This document shows, piece by piece, positions 32,980 to 45,191 of a stretch of 64,000 nucleotides of DNA. Positions within the stretch are counted from its first letter, which is position 1. Each line of letters begins with the position of its first letter. This DNA comes from Saccharicrinis carchari (lineage in GTDB: Bacteria; Bacteroidota; Bacteroidia; Bacteroidales; Marinilabiliaceae), in the NCBI RefSeq assembly GCF_900182605.1, contig NZ_FXTB01000003.1, positions 434,001-498,000 of the forward strand, written 5' to 3'. The position numbers and the translations under genes are program-made. The notes under the pieces are model-generated. The model saw only the letters and a list, made by a program, of their open reading frames with translations. It had not been told where the DNA came from and made no database searches.

Positions 32980-33831
32980 CTAAAACTCCCACATGTCATG
33001 CTCGAAGTTGAATATTTCTGTTTTAATTCTTTCGGACTCAAGCATGGCTTCCATACCAACGGCATATTTATCAATTCCACGGTTATTGTACACGTTAGAT
33101 TCTCTGGTGATATAACTTCCAAAATACCTTTTCATAAATATATCGTCGAAGGTGCGGCGTTGTGCATCGTTACGTGGGTTAAACACCTCATTGCGGGCAA
33201 ACAGATCGCGTGCTTGCGGGAAATAAACCCAGAAGGTCTGTTTACGGGCCACTTCTTCTGATCCACCTTCACCAGAGGATTTAGAATACTCTCTGATAGG
33301 ACATAATCCTATAATACGAACATCCAGGCGTGAGTAGTTACGGTCGAAGAACCAAACTTCTTTTACCAATATTTGCTTTACTTCTTCGGGGCGCAGCTCA
33401 CCGGTTACTATTTGTTCTGCAAAGGTTCCATCTTCCTGTTTCACTTGCAGGGTGTCGCCAACCGCACCCATTTCGTAAAGCACCTGATCATACGACATTT
33501 CAACTTTAAATTCGTCGTCGTTTTTGGTGGAGTAAGCAGTAAGTCCTTCGTACTGTATGCCATGTATCAATAATTGGATAAGGCTATATCTTCCGTCCAT
33601 TGTATTGATAGGATAGTACAAGGGCAGATTAATTTTTTCGCGCAGATCAATAACCCGCCACACTTTTTTGGCCCACATCACATCCGCCTCTCTTACGTGA
33701 GGGTAGGGGATAGGTTTACGATTTAAAACATGTTCTTTTGGGTATATCCCGTCCAGAACGTTTTGGGCTTTTACGGTAGTAGTTCCTACCATTGCCACTA
33801 ACATGATTATTAAGAAGAACAATTTTTTCAT
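32980..33831 (-). CDS. gldN: Type IX secretion system protein GldN/PorN
   Basis: 283 residues with a signal peptide (LFFLIIMLVAMVGTTTVKA). GldN is a periplasmic ring component that works with the outer-membrane lipoprotein GldK. Recognisable features are the RxPIPYPxVREADVMW start of the mature protein and the long conserved stretch KEVWFFDRNYSRLDVRI with FARNEVFNPRND near the C-terminus. Last gene of the operon porP-gldK-gldL-gldM-gldN; a gap of about 50 bases to gldM. A terminator is at 32911-32940. Confidence 0.96.
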   Translation of the reverse strand: MKKLFFLIIMLVAMVGTTTVKAQNVLDGIYPKEHVLNRKPIPYPHVREADVMWAKKVWRVIDLREKINLPLYYPINTMDGRYSLIQLLIHGIQYEGLTAYSTKNDDEFKVEMSYDQVLYEMGAVGDTLQVKQEDGTFAEQIVTGELRPEEVKQILVKEVWFFDRNYSRLDVRIIGLCPIREYSKSSGEGGSEEVARKQTFWVYFPQARDLFARNEVFNPRNDAQRRTFDDIFMKRYFGSYITRESNVYNNRGIDKYAVGMEAMLESERIKTEIFNFEHDMWEF

Positions 33832-33883
33832 TACTATATTATTTTATGCTGTCTGTTTTAGTGATAACTTATTTTTATAATTA

Positions 33884-35443
33884 TTAATCTACCAAAAATG
33901 TAATTGTACCCAAATCTCGCGTTCCACCCGGGCCGGTAGCTCTAATTTCTTCGATAGATATTTTAGATCCTCTTGGCATTCCTTTTATCAGGTCTTTTTG
34001 CGCGGCAGTAAAGGCAGCGCTGTTGGAGGGTTCATCAACATTATATCCGTTTTTAAGCACCGATACGGTAAAGCGGCTAACTTTATATTCCAATTCAAAA
34101 TCAAAGTCTTTCATTTCGGCAAATACGGCTGTTTGTGCTGTTAATACCTGTTTGGGTATTTTACCCCCAGACTGCCCGGCAACAACCGGAACCGGGTCAG
34201 GTACCCTTTTAATCCGAAATTCCTGCTTACCTATAAACTTCTTTTTTCCTCCTATTTGTGCGCTTACCGTTACCACGGATTTTTTACCTGCTGTTCCGGC
34301 ATTGGGCTTTACTATATAATTACCACCACGCATGCTTCGGCTTACATTGCTCATGCTTACACTCAGGTCCTTCGTGGCCACGCCTGGCACCGAAATAGCC
34401 ACCGGATTTTCCACCCCTTCGTAAAACACGTTCATTTTAATAGGCGAAATCACCGCACTTGGTTTTACAACCTGATACTCTCCTTCTATTGGATATTCAA
34501 TTGTTTCCGATCCATCCGGGGTTGGCATTTCAATATATCCTTTCCACTGATGCTCACCAACACCTTTAGTTTGTTTTAATATACCCTTGCCATCCTTTAT
34601 ATCGTTAATTTTTTTGCCGTTTATTACAATGTTTGGTACTATCGTCGGATCGTAGGCTGCCATGAACAATTCGGCTGTATAAGTTTCGCCTTCGAGTATG
34701 GTGGTTTTATATGGTTTTACCACCTGCATCAGTTTTTCAAACTTATAGGAGTCCTTATTGATATGGGCATAAAGATTAGCTACCATATCTGCCTCTGCGC
34801 TCCTAACATCTCCCTGTATCTTACTCAGCATGGCCATAGATGCTGAAAGGGGGATATGTTCAAATTTAGTGGATTCCCAGGATTTTTTTACATCCTTCTC
34901 GCCCTTTATGTCGTCAGTATTAAACATTTCCTGATAGGCTAAAACAAAGGCGCTATCTGTAACTTCAATCTCTCCTAAGCTCTGAAGTAGCAATTCTTTG
35001 TATTTATTCATTTCGCTTTTAAGCACCTTGCTTCGTTCTCCGCCTTTTTCGGTAATCATTATCTGGGGTGCTATATCCTGATTATCGTGCCCTTTATAAT
35101 TATCAGGTGTAGCTTCGGAGCCTCCTGCTGTTTGTGCCAGCAAAATTTTTAGATCCTGTATATGATTCACCAGGCTATCTGCCGCAGCTTTTATTTCATT
35201 CGCTTTCGCCCAATCCTTACCGGCTTTTTCGCGGTTGTTACTGTAGGCTGTTTCAAACTGATTGTAAAGTACTTCTGTTTTTCGTTCTACGGTTCCTCGT
35301 GATTGATTAAATCCTTCATCGAGAGAAACAAAAGCCTGAAGCAACTCCCCTGACACATTCAACGCGAGCATTGCTGTGAGAAAGAGGTACATCATACCTA
35401 TCATTTTCTGCCGCGGCGTTTCTGGACAATTTCCACCACTCAT
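33884..35443 (-). CDS. gldM: Type IX secretion / gliding motor protein GldM
   Basis: 519 residues. The N-terminus SGGNCPETPRQKMIGMMYLF followed by TAMLALNVSGELLQAF is the single transmembrane helix of GldM, which with GldL forms the proton-driven inner-membrane motor. The rest is a periplasmic chain of beta-rich domains (D1-D4) that reaches the GldKN ring. Full length. gldL lies 33 bases upstream. Confidence 0.96.
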   Translation of the reverse strand: MSGGNCPETPRQKMIGMMYLFLTAMLALNVSGELLQAFVSLDEGFNQSRGTVERKTEVLYNQFETAYSNNREKAGKDWAKANEIKAAADSLVNHIQDLKILLAQTAGGSEATPDNYKGHDNQDIAPQIMITEKGGERSKVLKSEMNKYKELLLQSLGEIEVTDSAFVLAYQEMFNTDDIKGEKDVKKSWESTKFEHIPLSASMAMLSKIQGDVRSAEADMVANLYAHINKDSYKFEKLMQVVKPYKTTILEGETYTAELFMAAYDPTIVPNIVINGKKINDIKDGKGILKQTKGVGEHQWKGYIEMPTPDGSETIEYPIEGEYQVVKPSAVISPIKMNVFYEGVENPVAISVPGVATKDLSVSMSNVSRSMRGGNYIVKPNAGTAGKKSVVTVSAQIGGKKKFIGKQEFRIKRVPDPVPVVAGQSGGKIPKQVLTAQTAVFAEMKDFDFELEYKVSRFTVSVLKNGYNVDEPSNSAAFTAAQKDLIKGMPRGSKISIEEIRATGPGGTRDLGTITFLVD

Positions 35444-35476: not shown

Positions 35477-36418
35477 TTAACGGCCTCCGGCATTCATGGC
35501 GCTCAGCATATTTCCGTATATGGTGTTCAATTCACCTACGGTTTTGTTGAGGCTGGATACCTGATCCCTGTAATTTTTCGCCTCCTCAACGGATTGCTTC
35601 AGATAACCGTGTATTTCGCCCAATCCTTGGTTTACATTTTCGGTAGATTGCAACTGTGTTTGTGATCCCTTTAGCTGCAACTCATAGATAGAATTGATTG
35701 ATGCCAGGTTTCCGTTGAGATCGGCTAATTGGTTGTTGTACTTTTTGCTGTTATCCGATATGCCGCTCATTTCCTGCTCCATACTTTTCGACATATTGGC
35801 GTAGGTTTCGATTAATTGCTTGCCCGATTGTGCCATATCGTTAGCCACTTTGGTGCCGGCATGCGAAATGGCATTGGCTGTAGCTGTGTAGGATTGCGTA
35901 AGTGCCTGTGTGGATTCTTCGATCGCTCTGGTAGATTTATCCTGTATATTTCCGAATTTACCTACCGATTCAGATGCGGTTTGTATATTTTTCAGATAGC
36001 TTTGGGTGGCCAAAGATGCATCGCTTAAATCGGCCAGTTGCGAGGAGGTAGTTCCCAGTTTTTTAATTCCGTCTGCCAACTCCGTTACCGTTTGTTGATC
36101 GATATTTCCGGTTTGGATAAGCGCTTGCAGCTCACTTCCGCCACCGCCACCTCCACCGTGATGCGCCGCTTTGGGTTCTAAACCTACCAATTCGGGATAA
36201 ACCAGACTCCAATCCGGCATTTCATGTGGTGGCTCAAAGGCCGACAGTGCAAAAATGATTGCTTCGGTGCCTAATCCTGCGATAAGCATATATGACGCTC
36301 CCGGCAAATGAAGTATTTTCCATAAGGCTCCAAGTATAACTACTGAAGCCCCTAAGCCATACACCTTACCCATTACCTTTTTATATCCCGGGCTTTCAAC
36401 AAATTCCGTTATGCTCAT
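35477..36418 (-). CDS. gldL: Type IX secretion / gliding motor protein GldL
   Basis: 313 residues. Two N-terminal transmembrane helices (about 20-37 and 42-60), the second with the buried glutamate E52 in GLGTEAII, equivalent to the proton-path glutamate of GldL. A glycine-run linker (GGGGGGG after HH, near 92-100) leads to a long coiled-coil cytoplasmic tail rich in Ser, Gln and Asn. With GldM it couples proton flow to rotation and to secretion. gldK lies about 80 bases upstream. Confidence 0.96.
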   Translation of the reverse strand: MSITEFVESPGYKKVMGKVYGLGASVVILGALWKILHLPGASYMLIAGLGTEAIIFALSAFEPPHEMPDWSLVYPELVGLEPKAAHHGGGGGGGSELQALIQTGNIDQQTVTELADGIKKLGTTSSQLADLSDASLATQSYLKNIQTASESVGKFGNIQDKSTRAIEESTQALTQSYTATANAISHAGTKVANDMAQSGKQLIETYANMSKSMEQEMSGISDNSKKYNNQLADLNGNLASINSIYELQLKGSQTQLQSTENVNQGLGEIHGYLKQSVEEAKNYRDQVSSLNKTVGELNTIYGNMLSAMNAGGR

Positions 36419-36497: not shown

Positions 36498-37826
36498 TTA
36501 GTCCCCAATATAATCTCTCACACATCTGAAACCGATAAACGATTTAGCGGAATCTTGATATTCGTAGGTGCGGGTACCGCATTGTAAGTAGTATCCCACA
36601 TCTTTCCATGATCCACCACGTATCACTTTTCGTTTCATTACATGTGGATCGTCGGGCAGTGCATTGTATTTGTAGTCGGGGTTAAAATCGTGCGTAAAAC
36701 TATAAGCCGACTCATCAAAGGCTCCGGATGTCCACTCAGCCACGTTACCGGACATATCGAACAAACCAAAATCGTTGGGTGCATAGGATGCCACTGCCAT
36801 GGTTGTGTTGCCACCGTCGTCGGCATATCGGCCCCTAAGTGGTTTAAAGTTGGCCAGGAAGCATCCTTTATCGTTGCGTGTATAAAGTCCACCCCAAGGG
36901 TACATTTGATTTTCTAAACCACCCCGGGCAGCATATTCCCACTCTGCTTCGGTGGGTAAGCGATATTCCATCACTTCAGCCTCTCCTTTGTTTCGCAGAA
37001 AGTTGTTCATCAATCTTGAACGCCAAATGGTAAAGGCGGTAGCTTGCTTAAAGGTTACGCCCACCACGGGATATTCGTAGAAACCAACGTGCCAAAAATA
37101 TTTTTCTGTCCAGGGCTCATTGAATGAATAGGTAAAATCGGCAATCCAGCACAAAGTATCGGGATATACGTTTACATTATCTTTCATTATAAAGTTAGAA
37201 CGGTCGCTAATGGCTGATTCCTCACCTTTTTGATCATAGGTAACCCCTTCGTACTGTTTGGTTTCAAAATTATAACGATTGGTTTTTTTTGCCGCTTGTT
37301 GCATATCCACCCATTCGTACTCATAGGTTAACTTGCGGGAATCAATTTCCTTTCTGCGGAAAAATCTTTCGTTTTCCGGTAAAAACATTTCTTCCAACAC
37401 CTCGGCATACTCCTCGTTGTCCCATTCCAGTCTTGCATCCCAATCCAGTATAGGCGGATCCAGTTCGTTACCTAACAGATCTTCTGTTATCACGAATTCT
37501 TCAAACTGCTCGCCTAAGAGCTGACGTGCGATAGAATCGCGCACCCAGTGAATAAACTGGCGATATTCGCTGTTGGTTATTTCCGTTTCGTCCATCCAAA
37601 AAGAACGGATAGAAACTGTTTTTGACTGTGCGGTCATGGACCAGGCAGCATCCTGATCGTTAGGCCCCATGTTAAAACTTCCTTGCGGAATAAATAACAT
37701 GCCATATGGATCCGGTTCGTAAAAGGTACCCTTTAGAGGTACGCCGGTAAGTTCGCCTCCTCCAGAATTACTACATCCGCTTAAGATAGTGACAACGATG
37801 ACACTAAGAGCTAGTACTTTCTTCAT
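36498..37826 (-). CDS. gldK: Type IX secretion lipoprotein GldK/PorK
   Basis: 442 residues. Lipoprotein signal with the lipobox LSGC (Cys18), followed by a formylglycine-generating-enzyme-like (FGE/sulfatase-modifying) domain: GSFNMGPND, EWEYAARGG, GNVAEWTSGAFDE and RKVIRGGSWKD. Full length for the family. In the complex it forms a periplasmic ring with GldN under the outer membrane. It has no known catalytic role despite the FGE fold. Confidence 0.95.
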   Translation of the reverse strand: MKKVLALSVIVVTILSGCSNSGGGELTGVPLKGTFYEPDPYGMLFIPQGSFNMGPNDQDAAWSMTAQSKTVSIRSFWMDETEITNSEYRQFIHWVRDSIARQLLGEQFEEFVITEDLLGNELDPPILDWDARLEWDNEEYAEVLEEMFLPENERFFRRKEIDSRKLTYEYEWVDMQQAAKKTNRYNFETKQYEGVTYDQKGEESAISDRSNFIMKDNVNVYPDTLCWIADFTYSFNEPWTEKYFWHVGFYEYPVVGVTFKQATAFTIWRSRLMNNFLRNKGEAEVMEYRLPTEAEWEYAARGGLENQMYPWGGLYTRNDKGCFLANFKPLRGRYADDGGNTTMAVASYAPNDFGLFDMSGNVAEWTSGAFDESAYSFTHDFNPDYKYNALPDDPHVMKRKVIRGGSWKDVGYYLQCGTRTYEYQDSAKSFIGFRCVRDYIGD

Positions 37827-37866: not shown

Positions 37867-38814
37867 TCATAAATATCTAACGCTTTTATAGCGTTTTGTT
37901 CTTTTCTCGAAATTAATATCCAGGTTGTATCCTACCATTATTTCGTGTGTCCCCCCGTTTCCGGTTGCGGCAATAGCCGATGTGCTTATATCATAACTGT
38001 AGCCAAATTTAACGCCGTTTTTCATTTCTATGCCAGCCAGCAATACAATAGCATCCTGATAACGATAGGTCAGTCCGCCCCAATATCTTCCTCTGTATTT
38101 TACCAGTGCATTAATATCAAGCTGTATGCTTCTTCTGTCTGTTTTAAAGAAGAACGAAGGTAAAAATTCGTATGCCGTATCTTCTATTTTATGCTTATAC
38201 CCTCCAAGTAGGTAAAATGTTCCAGTTGTTTTAAAATTAAATTCATTTTTATAGTTCGCTTCGGGACTATTGATGTGTGATAAGGAGGCTCCTGCGTAAA
38301 ACTTTTTACTATTGTAATACACCCCTAAACCTGCATCAAAGGCCGAACCCGATTGATCTGTTAACGGAATGTTTCCGTCGGTGGCATCGTAAACATCGCC
38401 TTTAAGATTATCCAGATTCCACATTGCTTTTAAACTTTGATTTAGCAATCCGGCATTTACTCCCAGCGATAGACTTCCTTTGTCAAGCTCCCATTTTACT
38501 GCATAAGTTAAATGCATCGACAGATTGGTAAAATTCCCTATTTCGTCGTTTAAAATGTTAAGCCCCAATCCGGCATCTATTCCCATGAATTTGATTGGCA
38601 TATCGCCACTAAAAACCGTTGTTTTTATGGCCATGTTGCCTCTCCACTGATTTCTGTTTAAGGCCACCAGATTTATCCCTTCGTTTGCACCGGCAAACGC
38701 CGGGTTAACGGCAAGTTTGTTAAACATATTTTGGCTGAACTGCGGATCGTATTGCGAATTAACATGGAACGCAGCCGCGCAAAATATAACAAAAATCAGA
38801 ATTCTCCTAAACAT
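37867..38814 (-). CDS. PorP/SprF family type IX secretion outer-membrane protein
   Basis: 315 residues, signal peptide (ILIFVIFCAAAFHVNSQ) followed by YDPQFSQNMFNKLAVNPAFAG, the start signature of the PorP/SprF family, then a beta barrel with NRNQWRG and an alternating pattern to the end. These proteins act with secreted SprB-type adhesins or anchor T9SS substrates. It heads the gld operon, 40 bases before gldK. Confidence 0.93.
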   Translation of the reverse strand: MFRRILIFVIFCAAAFHVNSQYDPQFSQNMFNKLAVNPAFAGANEGINLVALNRNQWRGNMAIKTTVFSGDMPIKFMGIDAGLGLNILNDEIGNFTNLSMHLTYAVKWELDKGSLSLGVNAGLLNQSLKAMWNLDNLKGDVYDATDGNIPLTDQSGSAFDAGLGVYYNSKKFYAGASLSHINSPEANYKNEFNFKTTGTFYLLGGYKHKIEDTAYEFLPSFFFKTDRRSIQLDINALVKYRGRYWGGLTYRYQDAIVLLAGIEMKNGVKFGYSYDISTSAIAATGNGGTHEIMVGYNLDINFEKRTKRYKSVRYL

Positions 38815-39001: not shown

Positions 39002-40165
39002 TTATCCTTGGTTTTGTTTTTTATAGAACTTCCACCATTTATCGGGTAACTCACCGCTTTGTGCCTTCAAATAATCTTTTTTACTACAAGCCAGTAATTT
39101 TATCCCGTTTTTCCATGGTACTTCAATCCACCATCTATTGTTCAATCTGTTTGAATAGAAACGTATATGAACGTCAAAATCGTGTAAATGAACCACAGAA
39201 ATTTTATACTCCTGCATGTGCTCTTTGGGTATCTCCCTTGTATACTGGGACTTAGCATCTAAAAAATGCCAAATTATTTCTGCGCAGAGCATGCTTCCTT
39301 TGCCCGTTTTATCAATTGTAGGGTTGTATTCGCTTAAGCAAAATGCTTTTGAAGTAGCTCCGGCACCTGCATACCAGGCCAATTGACAAGCTTCGTATCC
39401 GGTAAAACCGTTTATATTAATATTTGAATAATAGGGCAAATAGCTTTGCTGTATAGCGCCTACATCAAAACAAAACAATTCGGCATCGCGACAAAACGGT
39501 TCGGCACAATCTATGTTTTCGCCTCTTAATTCTTTTAACCGCACACATTCCCATCCCAGCCGGTTCATTTTACTTACCTGGCTTTCGCCCAAAAGATAGT
39601 TTTGTGCACCTAGTATGTTCAATTCAAATATATCTTTATTGTAATGTGCACCCAGTTCGGATAAAAAGGTGTGTGCGCTAAAATCGGTTCCGTTATGGCA
39701 AAAGTCGAGTTTTGCATCTACGATGGTTACAGATAAATCATTTTTATCCCTGGCCAATCCTTTTGTTAGCGGCAGCACGTAATCCTGTCCCCCTCCCACA
39801 AGGAGCATGCACAGCCCTGAAGCGCTTAATAATTGTGTTACTTCGGCAAGGGCAAAATACCTGTCATTTAAAGTTTTACCTTTCAGGTTGCCCAGATCCA
39901 CAATCTGAATATCTCTGCTTGTTTTCCGTAAGGCCGATAAGCTATCTCTTATGGTACTTACGGCCTGACTGCAGCCTTGGTTTTGTGGCGCATTTTTATC
40001 ATCTGCCAATCCCACAATAGCTACCTCAAATTTTTTAAGATCGTTGAAGTCCCAGCCATCTGCTATACCATATACGATTTGATTGCCCAAGGTATCTTCC
40101 AACGGCATTAATTGGTTGATTACTTTGGCAGGTGTTACGGTTTCGAAAAAATCACTAAGCTGCAC
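39002..40165 (-). CDS. Arginase/formimidoylglutamase-fold protein with degenerate metal site
   Basis: 387 residues with the ureohydrolase (arginase/HutG) fold. The dinuclear Mn site is altered: the GGDHS motif is GGGQD (124-128), DAHxD is DAKLD (150-154), and DxDxxDP is DVGAIQQ (234-240), so three of the six normal ligands (His, His, Asp) are replaced. The later SEYNP segment (278-282) still resembles the family's EvNP. It is therefore probably a pseudoenzyme. The C-terminal 80 residues (rich in Trp, Lys and Tyr) extend beyond usual arginases. Gene order topA - this gene - porP - gldK suggests a conserved neighbourhood with the secretion locus; a role there is inference. Confidence 0.85.
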   Translation of the reverse strand: MQLSDFFETVTPAKVINQLMPLEDTLGNQIVYGIADGWDFNDLKKFEVAIVGLADDKNAPQNQGCSQAVSTIRDSLSALRKTSRDIQIVDLGNLKGKTLNDRYFALAEVTQLLSASGLCMLLVGGGQDYVLPLTKGLARDKNDLSVTIVDAKLDFCHNGTDFSAHTFLSELGAHYNKDIFELNILGAQNYLLGESQVSKMNRLGWECVRLKELRGENIDCAEPFCRDAELFCFDVGAIQQSYLPYYSNININGFTGYEACQLAWYAGAGATSKAFCLSEYNPTIDKTGKGSMLCAEIIWHFLDAKSQYTREIPKEHMQEYKISVVHLHDFDVHIRFYSNRLNNRWWIEVPWKNGIKLLACSKKDYLKAQSGELPDKWWKFYKKQNQG

Positions 40166-40183: not shown

Positions 40184-42631
40184 TTACTTTTTGGTAGCCT
40201 TTTTGGCAGCCGTTTTTTTTGTTGCTTTTGTCGAAGTTTTTTTAGCGCTTGTTTTTTTGGCAGCGGTTTTTTTAGCCGGGGCTTTTTTGCCGGTTTTTTT
40301 ACCACCTTCTTTAATCAACTTCTGACAGTCCTCCAGGGTAAGTGCCTTGGGATCGGTGTCCTTGGGTATCTTATAATTCTTTTTTTGGTAAGAAATATAA
40401 GGACCAAAGCGCCCGTTTAAAACCTGTATTTCCGGATCTTCCTCAAAGCTTTTGATATGCTTTTCCTTGTCGGCTTTTCTTTTTTCTTTGATCAGCTCAA
40501 TAGCTCTGTCAAGTTCAATTTCCAAGGGGTCGTCGATTCCTTTCTTTAAGGATACAAATTTGCCGTCGTGTCGGACGTATGGCCCGAACCGGCCTATGCC
40601 TACAACTACTTTTTTGTCTTCAAAAAGTCCTAAGTCGCGGGGAAGGTCGAACAAGCGCAAGGCCTGCTCAAGGGTGATTGTTTCCAGATGCTGGCCTTTT
40701 TGTAGCGAGGCAAATTTGGGTTTCTCTACCTCTTCATCGTCGCTGCTCTCACCCATTTGAGCCATGGGGCCATAACGACCAATTTTTACCAATACCGGTT
40801 TTCCGGTTTTGGGGTCGTTACCCAGCTGGCGTTCACCCGTATTGCGTTCAGAGTTTTCAAGGGTTTCCTCAACCTGCTGATGAAAGCTTTGATAGAACTC
40901 GTCGATAGACTCGTTCCAAACCACTTTGCCCATGGATATTTCGTCGAACTCCATTTCTACCTTCGCCGTAAAATCGTAGCTAAAGATATTGGGGAAGTAC
41001 TTCATCAAAAAATCATTGACCACCATGCCTATATCGGTGGGGAAGAGTTTGTTGCGCTCGGCACCACTTATTTCGGTTTTTTCCTGACTTACAAGGGCAT
41101 CGTCTTTTAGCGCTATATACCGGTAATTCCTTTTTATCCCCTCGCGCTCTTCCTTCACCACATAACCCCGGTTCTGTATGGTAGAAATGGTGGGTGCATA
41201 CGTAGAAGGACGGCCTATACCCAGGTCTTCCAGCTTTTTAACAAGTGATGCTTCGGAGTAGCGGGGCGGTTTTTGGCTCCATCGTTCACGTGCCTCTATC
41301 ACATTATAGGAAAGCTTATCGCCCACCTTCATCGGTGGTAATAATCCAGCATCTTCTTCCTCATCGTTATCGCCCTCATTTTCTGAAGATTGAAGATATA
41401 CTTTCAGAAAGCCGTCGAACTTGATTACCTCGCCATTGGCTACAAAATGTTCTTTTACTCCATCGGCTTTTATTTGTACTGTGGTTTTCTCCAGTTGGGC
41501 ATCGCTCATTTGCGAGGCGATGGTGCGTTTCCAGATGAGGTCGTATAGCTTTTGTTCCTGTTGCGAACCGCTCACCCCGGGTTTGCTTAGGTCGGTAGGC
41601 CGTATGGCTTCGTGCGCTTCCTGTGCGCCTTTGCTCTTGGTATGGTACTTTCGTATTTTCAGATACGCTTCGCCCATATTTGATGTAATTTGTTCGCTTG
41701 CCATTTTAAGGGCTGTGTCGGATAAGTTAACCGAATCGGTACGCATGTAGGTTATCTTACCCCCCTCGTACAGCTTCTGTGCTACTGACATGGTTTGTCC
41801 TACTGAAAAACCGAGCTTTCGGCTAGCCTCCTGCTGCAGGGTAGACGTAGTAAAAGGAGCTGCCGGAGATTTTTTTAAGGGCTTTTTGCTAACATCGCTA
41901 ACGCTAAAGTTGGCTCCCTTACAACTTTCTAAAAAAGATGTTGTTTCTTCAGGGCTCTTAAATCGCTTCGGTAATTCGGCTTTTATTTCCGTTATTTTAC
42001 CATCGTCATTGGTAATGGTAAATACCGCGGTTACACGGTAGGATGATTCGGGTTTAAAGGCAAATATTTCCCTTTCGCGTTCCACGATTAATCTTACGGT
42101 AACCGATTGCACGCGACCCGCAGAAAGCGAGGGTTTTACCTTTTTCCATAGCACGGGCGAAAGTTCAAAACCCACCAGCCTGTCCAATACGCGTCGGGCT
42201 TGTTGTGCATTTACCAAATTGATATTTATATCGCGGGGATTTTCCACTGCCTTAAGTATGGCAGGTTTTGTTATCTCGTGAAATACAATGCGTTTTGTAT
42301 TTTCGGGTGTTAAGCCTAATTCTTCGTACAGGTGCCACGCAATGGCTTCTCCTTCGCGGTCTTCATCCGAAGCCAGCCAAACCGTTTCAGCATCCTTGGC
42401 CAGTTTCTTTAATTCTTTTACCACCTCCTTTTTATCGTCGGAAACCACATAATGCGGTTTGTAGTTATTGGCAACATCAACACCATAATCCTTTTTGGCC
42501 AAATCGCGTATATGCCCGTAGCTCGATTTCACTAAAAAATCCTTTCCCAGGAATTTTTCAATGGTCTTTGCCTTGGCGGGAGACTCCACAATTACCAAAT
42601 TTTTTTCGCTTGCACTACTTTTTTTTGCCAT
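40184..42631 (-). CDS. topA: DNA topoisomerase I
   Basis: Type IA topoisomerase that relaxes negative supercoils, 815 residues. Toprim domain at the N-terminus (NLVIVESPAKAKTIEKFLG), with SDEDREGEAIAWHL acidic triad, the catalytic Tyr295 in ITYMRTDS, and C-terminal repeats of GRFGPYVxxDGKFVSL type in place of zinc fingers. The last 45 residues are a Lys/Ala/Thr-rich tail (KKTAAKKTSAKK-like repeats) that probably binds DNA non-specifically. It ends 19 bases before the start of the arginase-fold gene and is probably co-transcribed. Confidence 0.97.
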   Translation of the reverse strand: MAKKSSASEKNLVIVESPAKAKTIEKFLGKDFLVKSSYGHIRDLAKKDYGVDVANNYKPHYVVSDDKKEVVKELKKLAKDAETVWLASDEDREGEAIAWHLYEELGLTPENTKRIVFHEITKPAILKAVENPRDININLVNAQQARRVLDRLVGFELSPVLWKKVKPSLSAGRVQSVTVRLIVEREREIFAFKPESSYRVTAVFTITNDDGKITEIKAELPKRFKSPEETTSFLESCKGANFSVSDVSKKPLKKSPAAPFTTSTLQQEASRKLGFSVGQTMSVAQKLYEGGKITYMRTDSVNLSDTALKMASEQITSNMGEAYLKIRKYHTKSKGAQEAHEAIRPTDLSKPGVSGSQQEQKLYDLIWKRTIASQMSDAQLEKTTVQIKADGVKEHFVANGEVIKFDGFLKVYLQSSENEGDNDEEEDAGLLPPMKVGDKLSYNVIEARERWSQKPPRYSEASLVKKLEDLGIGRPSTYAPTISTIQNRGYVVKEEREGIKRNYRYIALKDDALVSQEKTEISGAERNKLFPTDIGMVVNDFLMKYFPNIFSYDFTAKVEMEFDEISMGKVVWNESIDEFYQSFHQQVEETLENSERNTGERQLGNDPKTGKPVLVKIGRYGPMAQMGESSDDEEVEKPKFASLQKGQHLETITLEQALRLFDLPRDLGLFEDKKVVVGIGRFGPYVRHDGKFVSLKKGIDDPLEIELDRAIELIKEKRKADKEKHIKSFEEDPEIQVLNGRFGPYISYQKKNYKIPKDTDPKALTLEDCQKLIKEGGKKTGKKAPAKKTAAKKTSAKKTSTKATKKTAAKKATKK

Positions 42632-42830: not shown

Positions 42831-45191
42831 ATGAGTTCAAACAGCAAAGGTGTAGGCAGGTTTCTAAGATGGTTTTGGGGCAGTATATTATTAGGCTTAC
42901 TTTTCGTATTCCTGTTGTTTTTATTGATAGCTAAAGGCTATTTGGGTATTATGCCTTCATTTGAGGAGCTGGAAAATCCCAAAAGCAATTTGGCCAGTCA
43001 GGTTATTTCAGAAGACCACAAGATATTGGGTAATTTTGCCATTGAAAACAGGACTTACGTTGATTATTCCGATCTATCGCCCAATATTGTAAATGCACTT
43101 ATAGCCACGGAAGACTTGCGTTTTTATGATCACTCGGGGATAGACCCCCGCGGATTGGCAAGGGTGGTTTTTCGCACCCTAATACTTGGCGACAAAGGCT
43201 CCGGAGGGGGGAGTACCATCACACAGCAGTTGGCCAAACTGTTATTCCACGAGCCCGCAAAAAATATATGGGAAAGAGGCTTGCAAAAGCTTAACGAATG
43301 GGTGATTGCGGTTAAGTTGGAGCGTAGCTACACCAAAAACGAAATATTAACCATGTATTTGAATAAGGTGGGATATATTTACGATGCCTACGGTATTCAA
43401 TCGGCAGCACAAACATTTTTTGCGGCCACTACAGACTCCATAAAAATAGAGGAAGCGGCAGTATTGGTGGGCATGCTCAAAAATCCGTCTCTTTTTAACC
43501 CTGTCCGACGGAAAGATACCACTGAATTTAGACGTAACGTGGTTTTAAATCAGATGCGCAAGGCACAGCATATAAGTGATTCCGAATACGATTCGCTTAA
43601 AAATATACCACTAACGCTAAAGTTTGCCCGTAGGGATCATAAGGAAGGTGTAGCCCCTTATTTTCGCGAACACATTCGTCTTACCCTTACGGCCAGGAAA
43701 CCCGAAAGAGAAAATTATCCCTCGTATTTGAACGATAAATTTATTGCCGACAGCATTGAATGGGAAAACAACCCTATCTATGGTTTTATAAACAAAACGC
43801 TGCAGCCCGATGGATCACGCTACAATATTTATAGCGATGGTTTAAAAATATACAGCACCGTTAACTATAAAATGCAAACCTATGCCGAGAATGCGGTGAA
43901 GGAACACTTAGCCAATGATTTGCAGAAAGCGTTTTTTAAAGAAAAAAAAGGACGTGCACGCGCACCCTTTACCAATAAAATAACACAGGAGCAATACGAA
44001 GGTATTATAAACAGAGCCATCCGCAATTCCGATAGATACCGGAACATGCAAAAGGAAGGAATAGACCGCGATTCAATAATGGAATCGTTTAAAATTCCGG
44101 TGCCTATGAAGGTGTTTACCTGGGATGGCGAACGCGACACGATACTAACTCCGTTAGACAGTATCATACATCTTAAATATTATTTGAGGGCCAGCTTTTT
44201 TTCCATCGACCCCAATAGCGGCCATGTGAAAGCCTATGTGGGAGGACCCAATTTTAAATATTTTATGTATGACATGGTATCTCAGGGTAAGCGGCAAGTG
44301 GGATCCACCATCAAGCCTTTGGTATATACCCTGGCCATGCAAGAAGGGCATACGCCTTGCGATTTGGTACCAAACATACCGCAAACATTTGTGCTCCCCG
44401 ACGGAAAGACCTGGACGCCACGAGACGACGGCAGGCGCCGTAAAGGCGAGATGGTGACCCTTAAGTGGGGGCTGGCCAACTCCAATAATAACATTTCGGC
44501 ATGGGTGATGAAGCAATATAATCCGAAAGCTGTGGCCGATATGATACACGAGTTGGGAATACTGAGTCCCATTGATCCCGTACCCTCGCTATGTTTAGGT
44601 ACTCCGGATTTTTCGTTGAATGAAATGGTAAGTGCCTACAGTACTTTTGTTAACAAGGGTGTTCGCATTGAACCCCTGATGATTTCGAGGATAGAGGATC
44701 GGTACGGCAATGTAATTGCCCAGTTTAGTCCCAATAAAAAAGAAGTGATAAGCGAACAGACAGCTTATCTAATGTTAAACTTGCTGCAGGGGGTTGTAAA
44801 TAGGGGAACCGGTATACGTTTGCGCTACACATATAATTTTACCGGGCAAATGGGAGGCAAAACCGGCACTTCGCAAAACCACTCCGATGGCTGGTTTATT
44901 GGTGTAACACCTAACTTGGTAAGCGGTGTATGGGTGGGTGGCGAAGACAGGGATATCCATTTTGATGGTATACGCATGGGGCAAGGGGCTAATATGGCCT
45001 TGCCTATATGGGCCTTATATATGAAGCAGGTTTATGCCGATGATTCGCTGGCCATAACGGAGGAGGATGTTTTTGAGGAGCCTGTTAACTTTAATATATC
45101 GCTGGATTGCAGCGACGACATAAAAACCAGCATTGAAGGGGAAGAGGTTGAAGAGGAGTATGTCAATGGCACGGAGGAAGAGTTTATGTAG
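42831..45191 (+). CDS. Class A penicillin-binding protein (PBP1A)
   Basis: Bifunctional cell-wall synthase, 786 residues. One N-terminal transmembrane helix (about 16-36), then a GT51 glycosyltransferase with the catalytic E94 in ATEDLRFYDHSG and GGSTITQQL, followed by a transpeptidase with the SxxK nucleophile Ser492 in GSTIKP, SNNN around residue 552 and KTGTSQN near 680. It polymerises and crosslinks peptidoglycan. Divergent from topA over a 199-base gap. Terminator at 45199-45237. Confidence 0.96.
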   Translation: MSSNSKGVGRFLRWFWGSILLGLLFVFLLFLLIAKGYLGIMPSFEELENPKSNLASQVISEDHKILGNFAIENRTYVDYSDLSPNIVNALIATEDLRFYDHSGIDPRGLARVVFRTLILGDKGSGGGSTITQQLAKLLFHEPAKNIWERGLQKLNEWVIAVKLERSYTKNEILTMYLNKVGYIYDAYGIQSAAQTFFAATTDSIKIEEAAVLVGMLKNPSLFNPVRRKDTTEFRRNVVLNQMRKAQHISDSEYDSLKNIPLTLKFARRDHKEGVAPYFREHIRLTLTARKPERENYPSYLNDKFIADSIEWENNPIYGFINKTLQPDGSRYNIYSDGLKIYSTVNYKMQTYAENAVKEHLANDLQKAFFKEKKGRARAPFTNKITQEQYEGIINRAIRNSDRYRNMQKEGIDRDSIMESFKIPVPMKVFTWDGERDTILTPLDSIIHLKYYLRASFFSIDPNSGHVKAYVGGPNFKYFMYDMVSQGKRQVGSTIKPLVYTLAMQEGHTPCDLVPNIPQTFVLPDGKTWTPRDDGRRRKGEMVTLKWGLANSNNNISAWVMKQYNPKAVADMIHELGILSPIDPVPSLCLGTPDFSLNEMVSAYSTFVNKGVRIEPLMISRIEDRYGNVIAQFSPNKKEVISEQTAYLMLNLLQGVVNRGTGIRLRYTYNFTGQMGGKTGTSQNHSDGWFIGVTPNLVSGVWVGGEDRDIHFDGIRMGQGANMALPIWALYMKQVYADDSLAITEEDVFEEPVNFNISLDCSDDIKTSIEGEEVEEEYVNGTEEEFM

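Follow-up and report, generated by a model that had tools for sequence, protein, structure and literature searches.

Why does a gene resembling an arginase lie beside the core genes of the type IX secretion system (T9SS), and is its product still an enzyme? The question is raised by a gene at 39002..40165, on the minus strand, in a 64,000-nucleotide stretch of the Saccharicrinis carchari genome, which we call the window. It encodes a protein of 387 amino acids and starts with GTG, where close homologues have ATG at the same start position. An earlier note on this DNA had proposed that the product is a non-catalytic arginase-fold protein, tied to secretion or to some other role.

The protein is a ureohydrolase by descent

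Residues 47-301 match the Pfam Arginase family PF00491 (1.8e-15; 57.6 bits against a cut-off of 22; profile positions 2-277 of 280), and this whole-domain profile match places the protein in the ureohydrolase superfamily. Its closest solved relatives are formimidoylglutamases, and its closest sequence family is HutG (TIGR01227; PDB 3m1r, 4mxr), with which it has a domain in common over residues 44-302. The hutG model is the top NCBIfam family for the window protein and matches all 24 family members scanned; no family-specific NCBIfam model was matched by these 24. The window protein, the only one of the 24 for which a bit score against the cut-off was recorded, reaches 61.9 bits where the curated threshold is 229. 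The hutG name is therefore unearned, which supports the earlier note's view that annotation as formimidoylglutamase would be wrong. Members of the window family further differ from HutG in lacking the site B metal ligands and in carrying a C-terminal extension, both described below.

An AlphaFold model, run with four sequences, was weak (pLDDT 54) and was used for topology only; its top Foldseek matches are ureohydrolases, with a best E value of 4e-7 and TM-scores of 0.33-0.57. The hydropathy of the window protein suggests no signal peptide, hydrophobic N-terminus or membrane segment and, given that it has neither of the latter two, it should be cytosolic.

The same genome encodes a second ureohydrolase (G000:C6:188900-189637; L189:5266-6267), which keeps all six metal ligands and is also below the hutG cut-off. 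Its gene is next to one for a DoeB-like deacetylase, with a group A6 [FeFe] hydrogenase nearby; the neighbours that were scanned included no hut gene.

Metal site B is lost throughout the family

To survey the metal ligands we collected homologues from about 120 genomes covering many families, together with loci returned by searches. This gave 145 distinct sequences with the C-terminal extension, and 149 after four more divergent members were added; these sequences are relatives, and the counts given here are not counts of independent events.

In arginase, metal site A is formed by H101, D124, D128 and D232, and site B by H126, D124, D232 and D234. The window protein has Q, D, K, D, D, G where arginase has H, D, H, D, D, D, and the claim that three of the six manganese ligands are replaced is correct. 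Those kept are D150 (39716..39718, minus strand, like the other residue positions given here) and D234 (39464..39466), equivalent to the bridging ligands D124 and D232 of both sites, and D154 (39704..39706), equivalent to D128 of site A. Aspartate is found at these positions in 137, 131 and 125 of the 145 sequences respectively, and they rank 26, 36 and 59 of 387 in conservation. The replaced ligands are H101 of site A, by Q127 (39785..39787; Q in 107 of 145, H in 15, N in 7, E in 6); H126 of site B, by K152 (39710..39712; R in 38, K in 33, H in only 6); and D234 of site B, by G236 (39458..39460; S in 90, G in 23, N in 14, D in only 2). The active-site glutamate, E277 in arginase, is kept as E279 (39329..39331; E in 112 of 145). 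The earlier pairing of the motifs GGDHS and GGGQD captured a genuine ligand loss, but was loose, since the ligand histidine aligns to Q127, and it left the strand unstated.

Not all of these replacements carry the same weight. Asparagine occupies the H101 position in the T. cruzi formiminoglutamase (PDB 4myn is titled 'N114H variant'), and three of our loci (L173, L174 and L176) read NDHDDD, with the other five ligands intact. Because asparagine is natural at this position in otherwise complete enzymes, Q127 is weak evidence of metal loss; judging by the alignment, it is the two losses in site B, rather than the change of H101 to glutamine, that matter.

Not one of the 149 extended homologues has the six ligands of the binuclear cluster that mark an active ureohydrolase. 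The maximum is four, reached by 18 sequences; no member has a complete site B (D, H, D, D), and 120 have a complete site A (Q, H, N or E, followed by D, D, D). By the same procedure, 11 of 16 non-extended ureohydrolases of the phylum have six ligands and the other 5 have five, all 16 reading HDHDDD, NDHDDD or a single-substitution variant. A maximum-likelihood tree was built from 54 sequences with the extension and 16 canonical ones; it is unrooted and has some deep long branches, and in it a single branch divides the two groups with 100/100 support. Full-length matches to the family occur only in class Bacteroidia, where 275 of 295 genomes have a family match; proteins from other classes of the phylum match to about position 300. 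On our best reading, this is an orthologous family spanning the class and derived from a formimidoylglutamase-like ureohydrolase.

The dN/dS of the window gene against L003 and L004 is about 0.17, and values among close relatives range from 0.09 to 0.17, the window-L005 value resting on a near-saturated dS. The family is under purifying selection. The class-wide ligand pattern and the low dN/dS rule out decay in a single genome, or a pseudogene. One family member elsewhere (G057:C1:921217-922353), from a genome of one contig, matches in three pieces and contains in-frame stops; it is either a pseudogene or the product of sequencing errors.

The earlier note had suggested checking in close homologues whether the ligand losses are fixed or the ligands persist at this locus. 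The losses are fixed, and with both ureohydrolase descent and a ligand loss fixed in a lineage under selection, the protein is by its sequence a probable arginase-fold pseudoenzyme. As metal site B is lost, no di-manganese centre is possible, and we regard it as secure, on the strength of the alignment, that the canonical binuclear manganese centre cannot form in this family. There would then be no such centre to activate water, and the protein is very probably not a guanidino hydrolase. The description 'non-catalytic' is apt to that extent. The change of H101 to glutamine is not by itself disabling, and with the site A acids so strongly conserved the protein may still bind metal; a one-metal site or a ligand-binding pocket is possible from the residues retained.

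A conserved C-terminal extension

The C-terminus had been described as non-standard, and so it is. Residues ~312-383 (~72 amino acids; 39017..39232, minus strand) lie outside the arginase domain, and few parts of the protein are better conserved. The conserved residues are F336, R344-W345-W346, C360, D364-Y365, P374 and W377-W378, of which F336, W345, W346, C360, D364, Y365 and P374 are each kept in at least 138 of 145 sequences. The weak AlphaFold model tentatively predicts four strands and two helices for this region. A comparison of residues ~312-383 with Pfam gave no credible family match, and on that search we rejected the idea that the extension is a known domain.

In four loci (L185, L186, L187 and L188, from genomes G202, G565, G569 and G061) the extension is present and its tryptophan pair mostly kept, while the ligand set is almost wholly eroded. 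This pattern in the sequences suggests that selection acts more strongly on the extension than on the former active site.

Gene order at the locus

Gaps and family matches confirm the claim that the gene sits between topA and porP-gldKLMN. Directly upstream, across 18 bp, is topA (40184..42631); 187 bp downstream is a porP/sprF-family gene (37867..38814; TIGR03519, 242 bits), followed by gldK/porK (36498..37826; TIGR03525, 592 bits), gldL/porL (35477..36418; TIGR03513, 193.5 bits), gldM/porM (33884..35443; TIGR03517, 384 bits) and gldN/porN (32983..33843 as a stop-to-stop frame; TIGR03523, 214.7 bits), with all seven genes on the minus strand.

Among 124 loci across the class, topA is adjacent in 93, and 69 have a same-strand gldK no more than 6 kb away, these 69 coming from many families and establishing genetic linkage to the core T9SS genes. 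The order topA, arginase-like gene, (porP), gldK is found in 67 loci; topA alone in 26, of which 21 have at least 3.5 kb of downstream DNA in which to look; gldK alone in 2; and neither nearby in 29. The neighbourhood survey that had been suggested thus reveals a conserved order, but not a universal linkage to gldK. The pairing with topA is tighter than that with the T9SS genes, and many of the loci with topA alone may share one ancestral break. Scanning around the gene for promoters and terminators, including the Bacteroidetes-type promoter pattern, gave no more than expected by chance. The gene is probably co-transcribed with topA.

Other neighbours recur. The commonest where topA and gldK are both absent nearby is an opposite-strand gene resembling an NAD-dependent epimerase; it lies upstream, at a distance of one to three genes, in 12 of the 29 lone loci (L053, L063, L072, L082, L087, L093, L096, L097, L103, L105, L111 and L112). 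In the window, a PBP1A-family gene (42831-45191) is divergent from topA; 24 of the 124 loci have a homologue close to topA, and in 41 a miaB-like gene occupies a similar place.

Co-occurrence with the T9SS

GldK scores above its cut-off in 273 of the 295 genomes of the class. In a survey of 149 genomes of the order, counting as an orthologue any protein above 150 bits to the family profile, the orthologue is present in 104 of 137 GldK-positive genomes and in 0 of 12 GldK-negative genomes (Fisher p 2e-7, ignoring relatedness). The other 33 GldK-positive genomes, a quarter of the total, are without the gene.

In the other direction, genome G256 (99% complete) carries an intact family member (G256:C32:92748-93911), and in it GldK, GldM and SprA were not detected and there is one Por_Secre_tail match. 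SprA is also not found in its sister G040, making the SprA item weak. It is possible that G256 has lost the T9SS and retained the gene. Three further genomes that appear GldK-negative (G059, G155 and G255) were left out as counter-examples: because each has at least 150 Por_Secre_tail matches, we take them to have a T9SS, and the missing GldK is probably an assembly gap. G425, which we counted as GldK-negative, has 98 such matches and probably has a T9SS too. We rejected GldB (TIGR03514) as a discriminator of gliding, as it is near-universal and matches even G032, which is without GldK and SprA.

The 33 genomes and G256 rule out a strict T9SS phylogenetic profile. The proposed tie to secretion thus draws support from gene order and co-occurrence, but both have clear exceptions and the link is positional only. 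Our leading specific guess is that the protein takes part in assembling or regulating the T9SS, a tentative idea to which we give well under an even chance, given the GldK-positive genomes without the gene, G256, the 29 loci with neither neighbour and the 26 with topA only. The T9SS core (PorPKLMN/GldKLMN) is a direct and often conserved same-strand neighbour; the window protein, predicted to be cytosolic and absent from that quarter of GldK-positive genomes, is not a demonstrated component of it.

Alternatively, the protein may have a housekeeping role connected with topA or with general physiology, and its gene may have inherited its T9SS neighbours by accident. When the order breaks up, it is topA that stays beside the gene (26 loci) far more often than gldK (2), the gene is closer to topA (18 bp) than to porP (187 bp), it is kept in G256, and 12 of the 29 lone loci place it near the epimerase-like gene. 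However, preservation of the T9SS neighbourhood in 69 loci from many families, and absence of the gene from 12 of 12 GldK-negative genomes of the order, make us consider this explanation unlikely, if deserving of serious attention.

What the protein may do

The best reading of these results, and one that we hold to be on balance probable, is that the family consists of cytosolic, non-hydrolytic binding or adaptor proteins. Such a role fits because the catalytic centre has been lost, selection is strong and a new conserved domain is present. In outline, the protein would have kept the acidic cluster of site A and the active-site glutamate while gaining the C-terminal domain; the former active site would be a pocket that is either rigid or holds a ligand, and partners would bind at the surface of the C-terminal domain, which has a conserved patch rich in Trp and Cys.

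Intact site A in 120 of 149 members appears to exceed the need of a purely structural pseudoenzyme, and mononuclear chemistry is possible on that basis. This leads to the idea of a remodelled enzyme or small-molecule sensor, in which site A (Q, H or N with three Asp) holds one metal ion, or a cationic or guanidino ligand occupies the acidic pocket with no metal present. The high conservation ranks of D150, D234 and D154, the retention of E279, and the occurrence of amide residues at the H101 position of complete enzymes are all consistent with it. We nevertheless think it distinctly doubtful, as 71 of 149 members carry K or R at the H126 position, which would bring a positive charge to the place of the second metal, and the acids too are lost in several lineages (L185-L188). 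We know of no mononuclear site A ureohydrolase.

Combining the binding or adaptor role with the T9SS link, the protein might be a Bacteroidia-specific sensor or adaptor, its arginase pocket, with site A kept, binding a metal or cationic metabolite and its C-terminal domain controlling assembly or expression of the T9SS core, so linking metabolic state to secretion and gliding; we regard this fuller proposal as improbable.

The earlier note held that a non-catalytic arginase fold would be new. In that general form the claim fails: arginase-fold pseudoenzymes are a known kind. MetCb (MfmB), a metal-free subunit of metformin hydrolase, is the characterised example of such a fold functioning without metal, but it needs an active partner; between three and five of the six ligands are changed in its clade, and its extended C-terminus lies at the subunit interface (PMC11271267). 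MetCb thus resembles the window protein in its fold, its changed ligands and its extended C-terminus (the C-terminal parts being likened by description), but it is paired with active MetCa in one operon, whereas the window protein is unpaired and some genomes with the family are without a canonical partner. A second case, as far as its citation in PMC11271267 goes, is TbARG, a T. brucei arginase-like protein with the arginase fold and without the binuclear manganese cluster. It has that combination in common with the window family and is not known to have such a gene neighbourhood. TbARG is eukaryotic and of a lineage not known to be related.

The MetCb precedent, and the presence of canonical ureohydrolases in most sampled genomes, might point to an obligate partner of an active ureohydrolase in the same cell, but this is very improbable: no canonical ureohydrolase is among the recurring neighbour families, and in 5 of 55 genomes the orthologue is the sole PF00491 protein, which rules out an obligate heteromer as a general rule. 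Just as improbable is a formimidoylglutamase or arginase functional despite its substitutions, which would accord with its best known relatives and with the retained site A and glutamate, but not with loss of site B in 149 of 149 members or the wide margin below the hutG cut-off.

Significance

In the openly licensed literature we found no relevant paper connecting arginase or formimidoylglutamase with gldK or the T9SS. Nor does that literature appear to describe a family spread across a whole class that retains site A but not site B, carries a new C-terminal domain and has a conserved position by the T9SS core; description elsewhere is possible. The protein is conserved class-wide and usually lies in one of the best-studied loci of the class, yet work on the T9SS and gliding appears to have passed it over on account of its likeness to a metabolic enzyme. 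What is probably a helper without enzymatic activity is misnamed in databases, and this systematic error of annotation can be corrected. A site-A-only arginase fold is useful for studies of pseudoenzyme evolution. Should the protein act on the T9SS, a cytosolic factor of that system would have been missed until now; should it not, the C-terminal domain is still new and the protein still found across the class.
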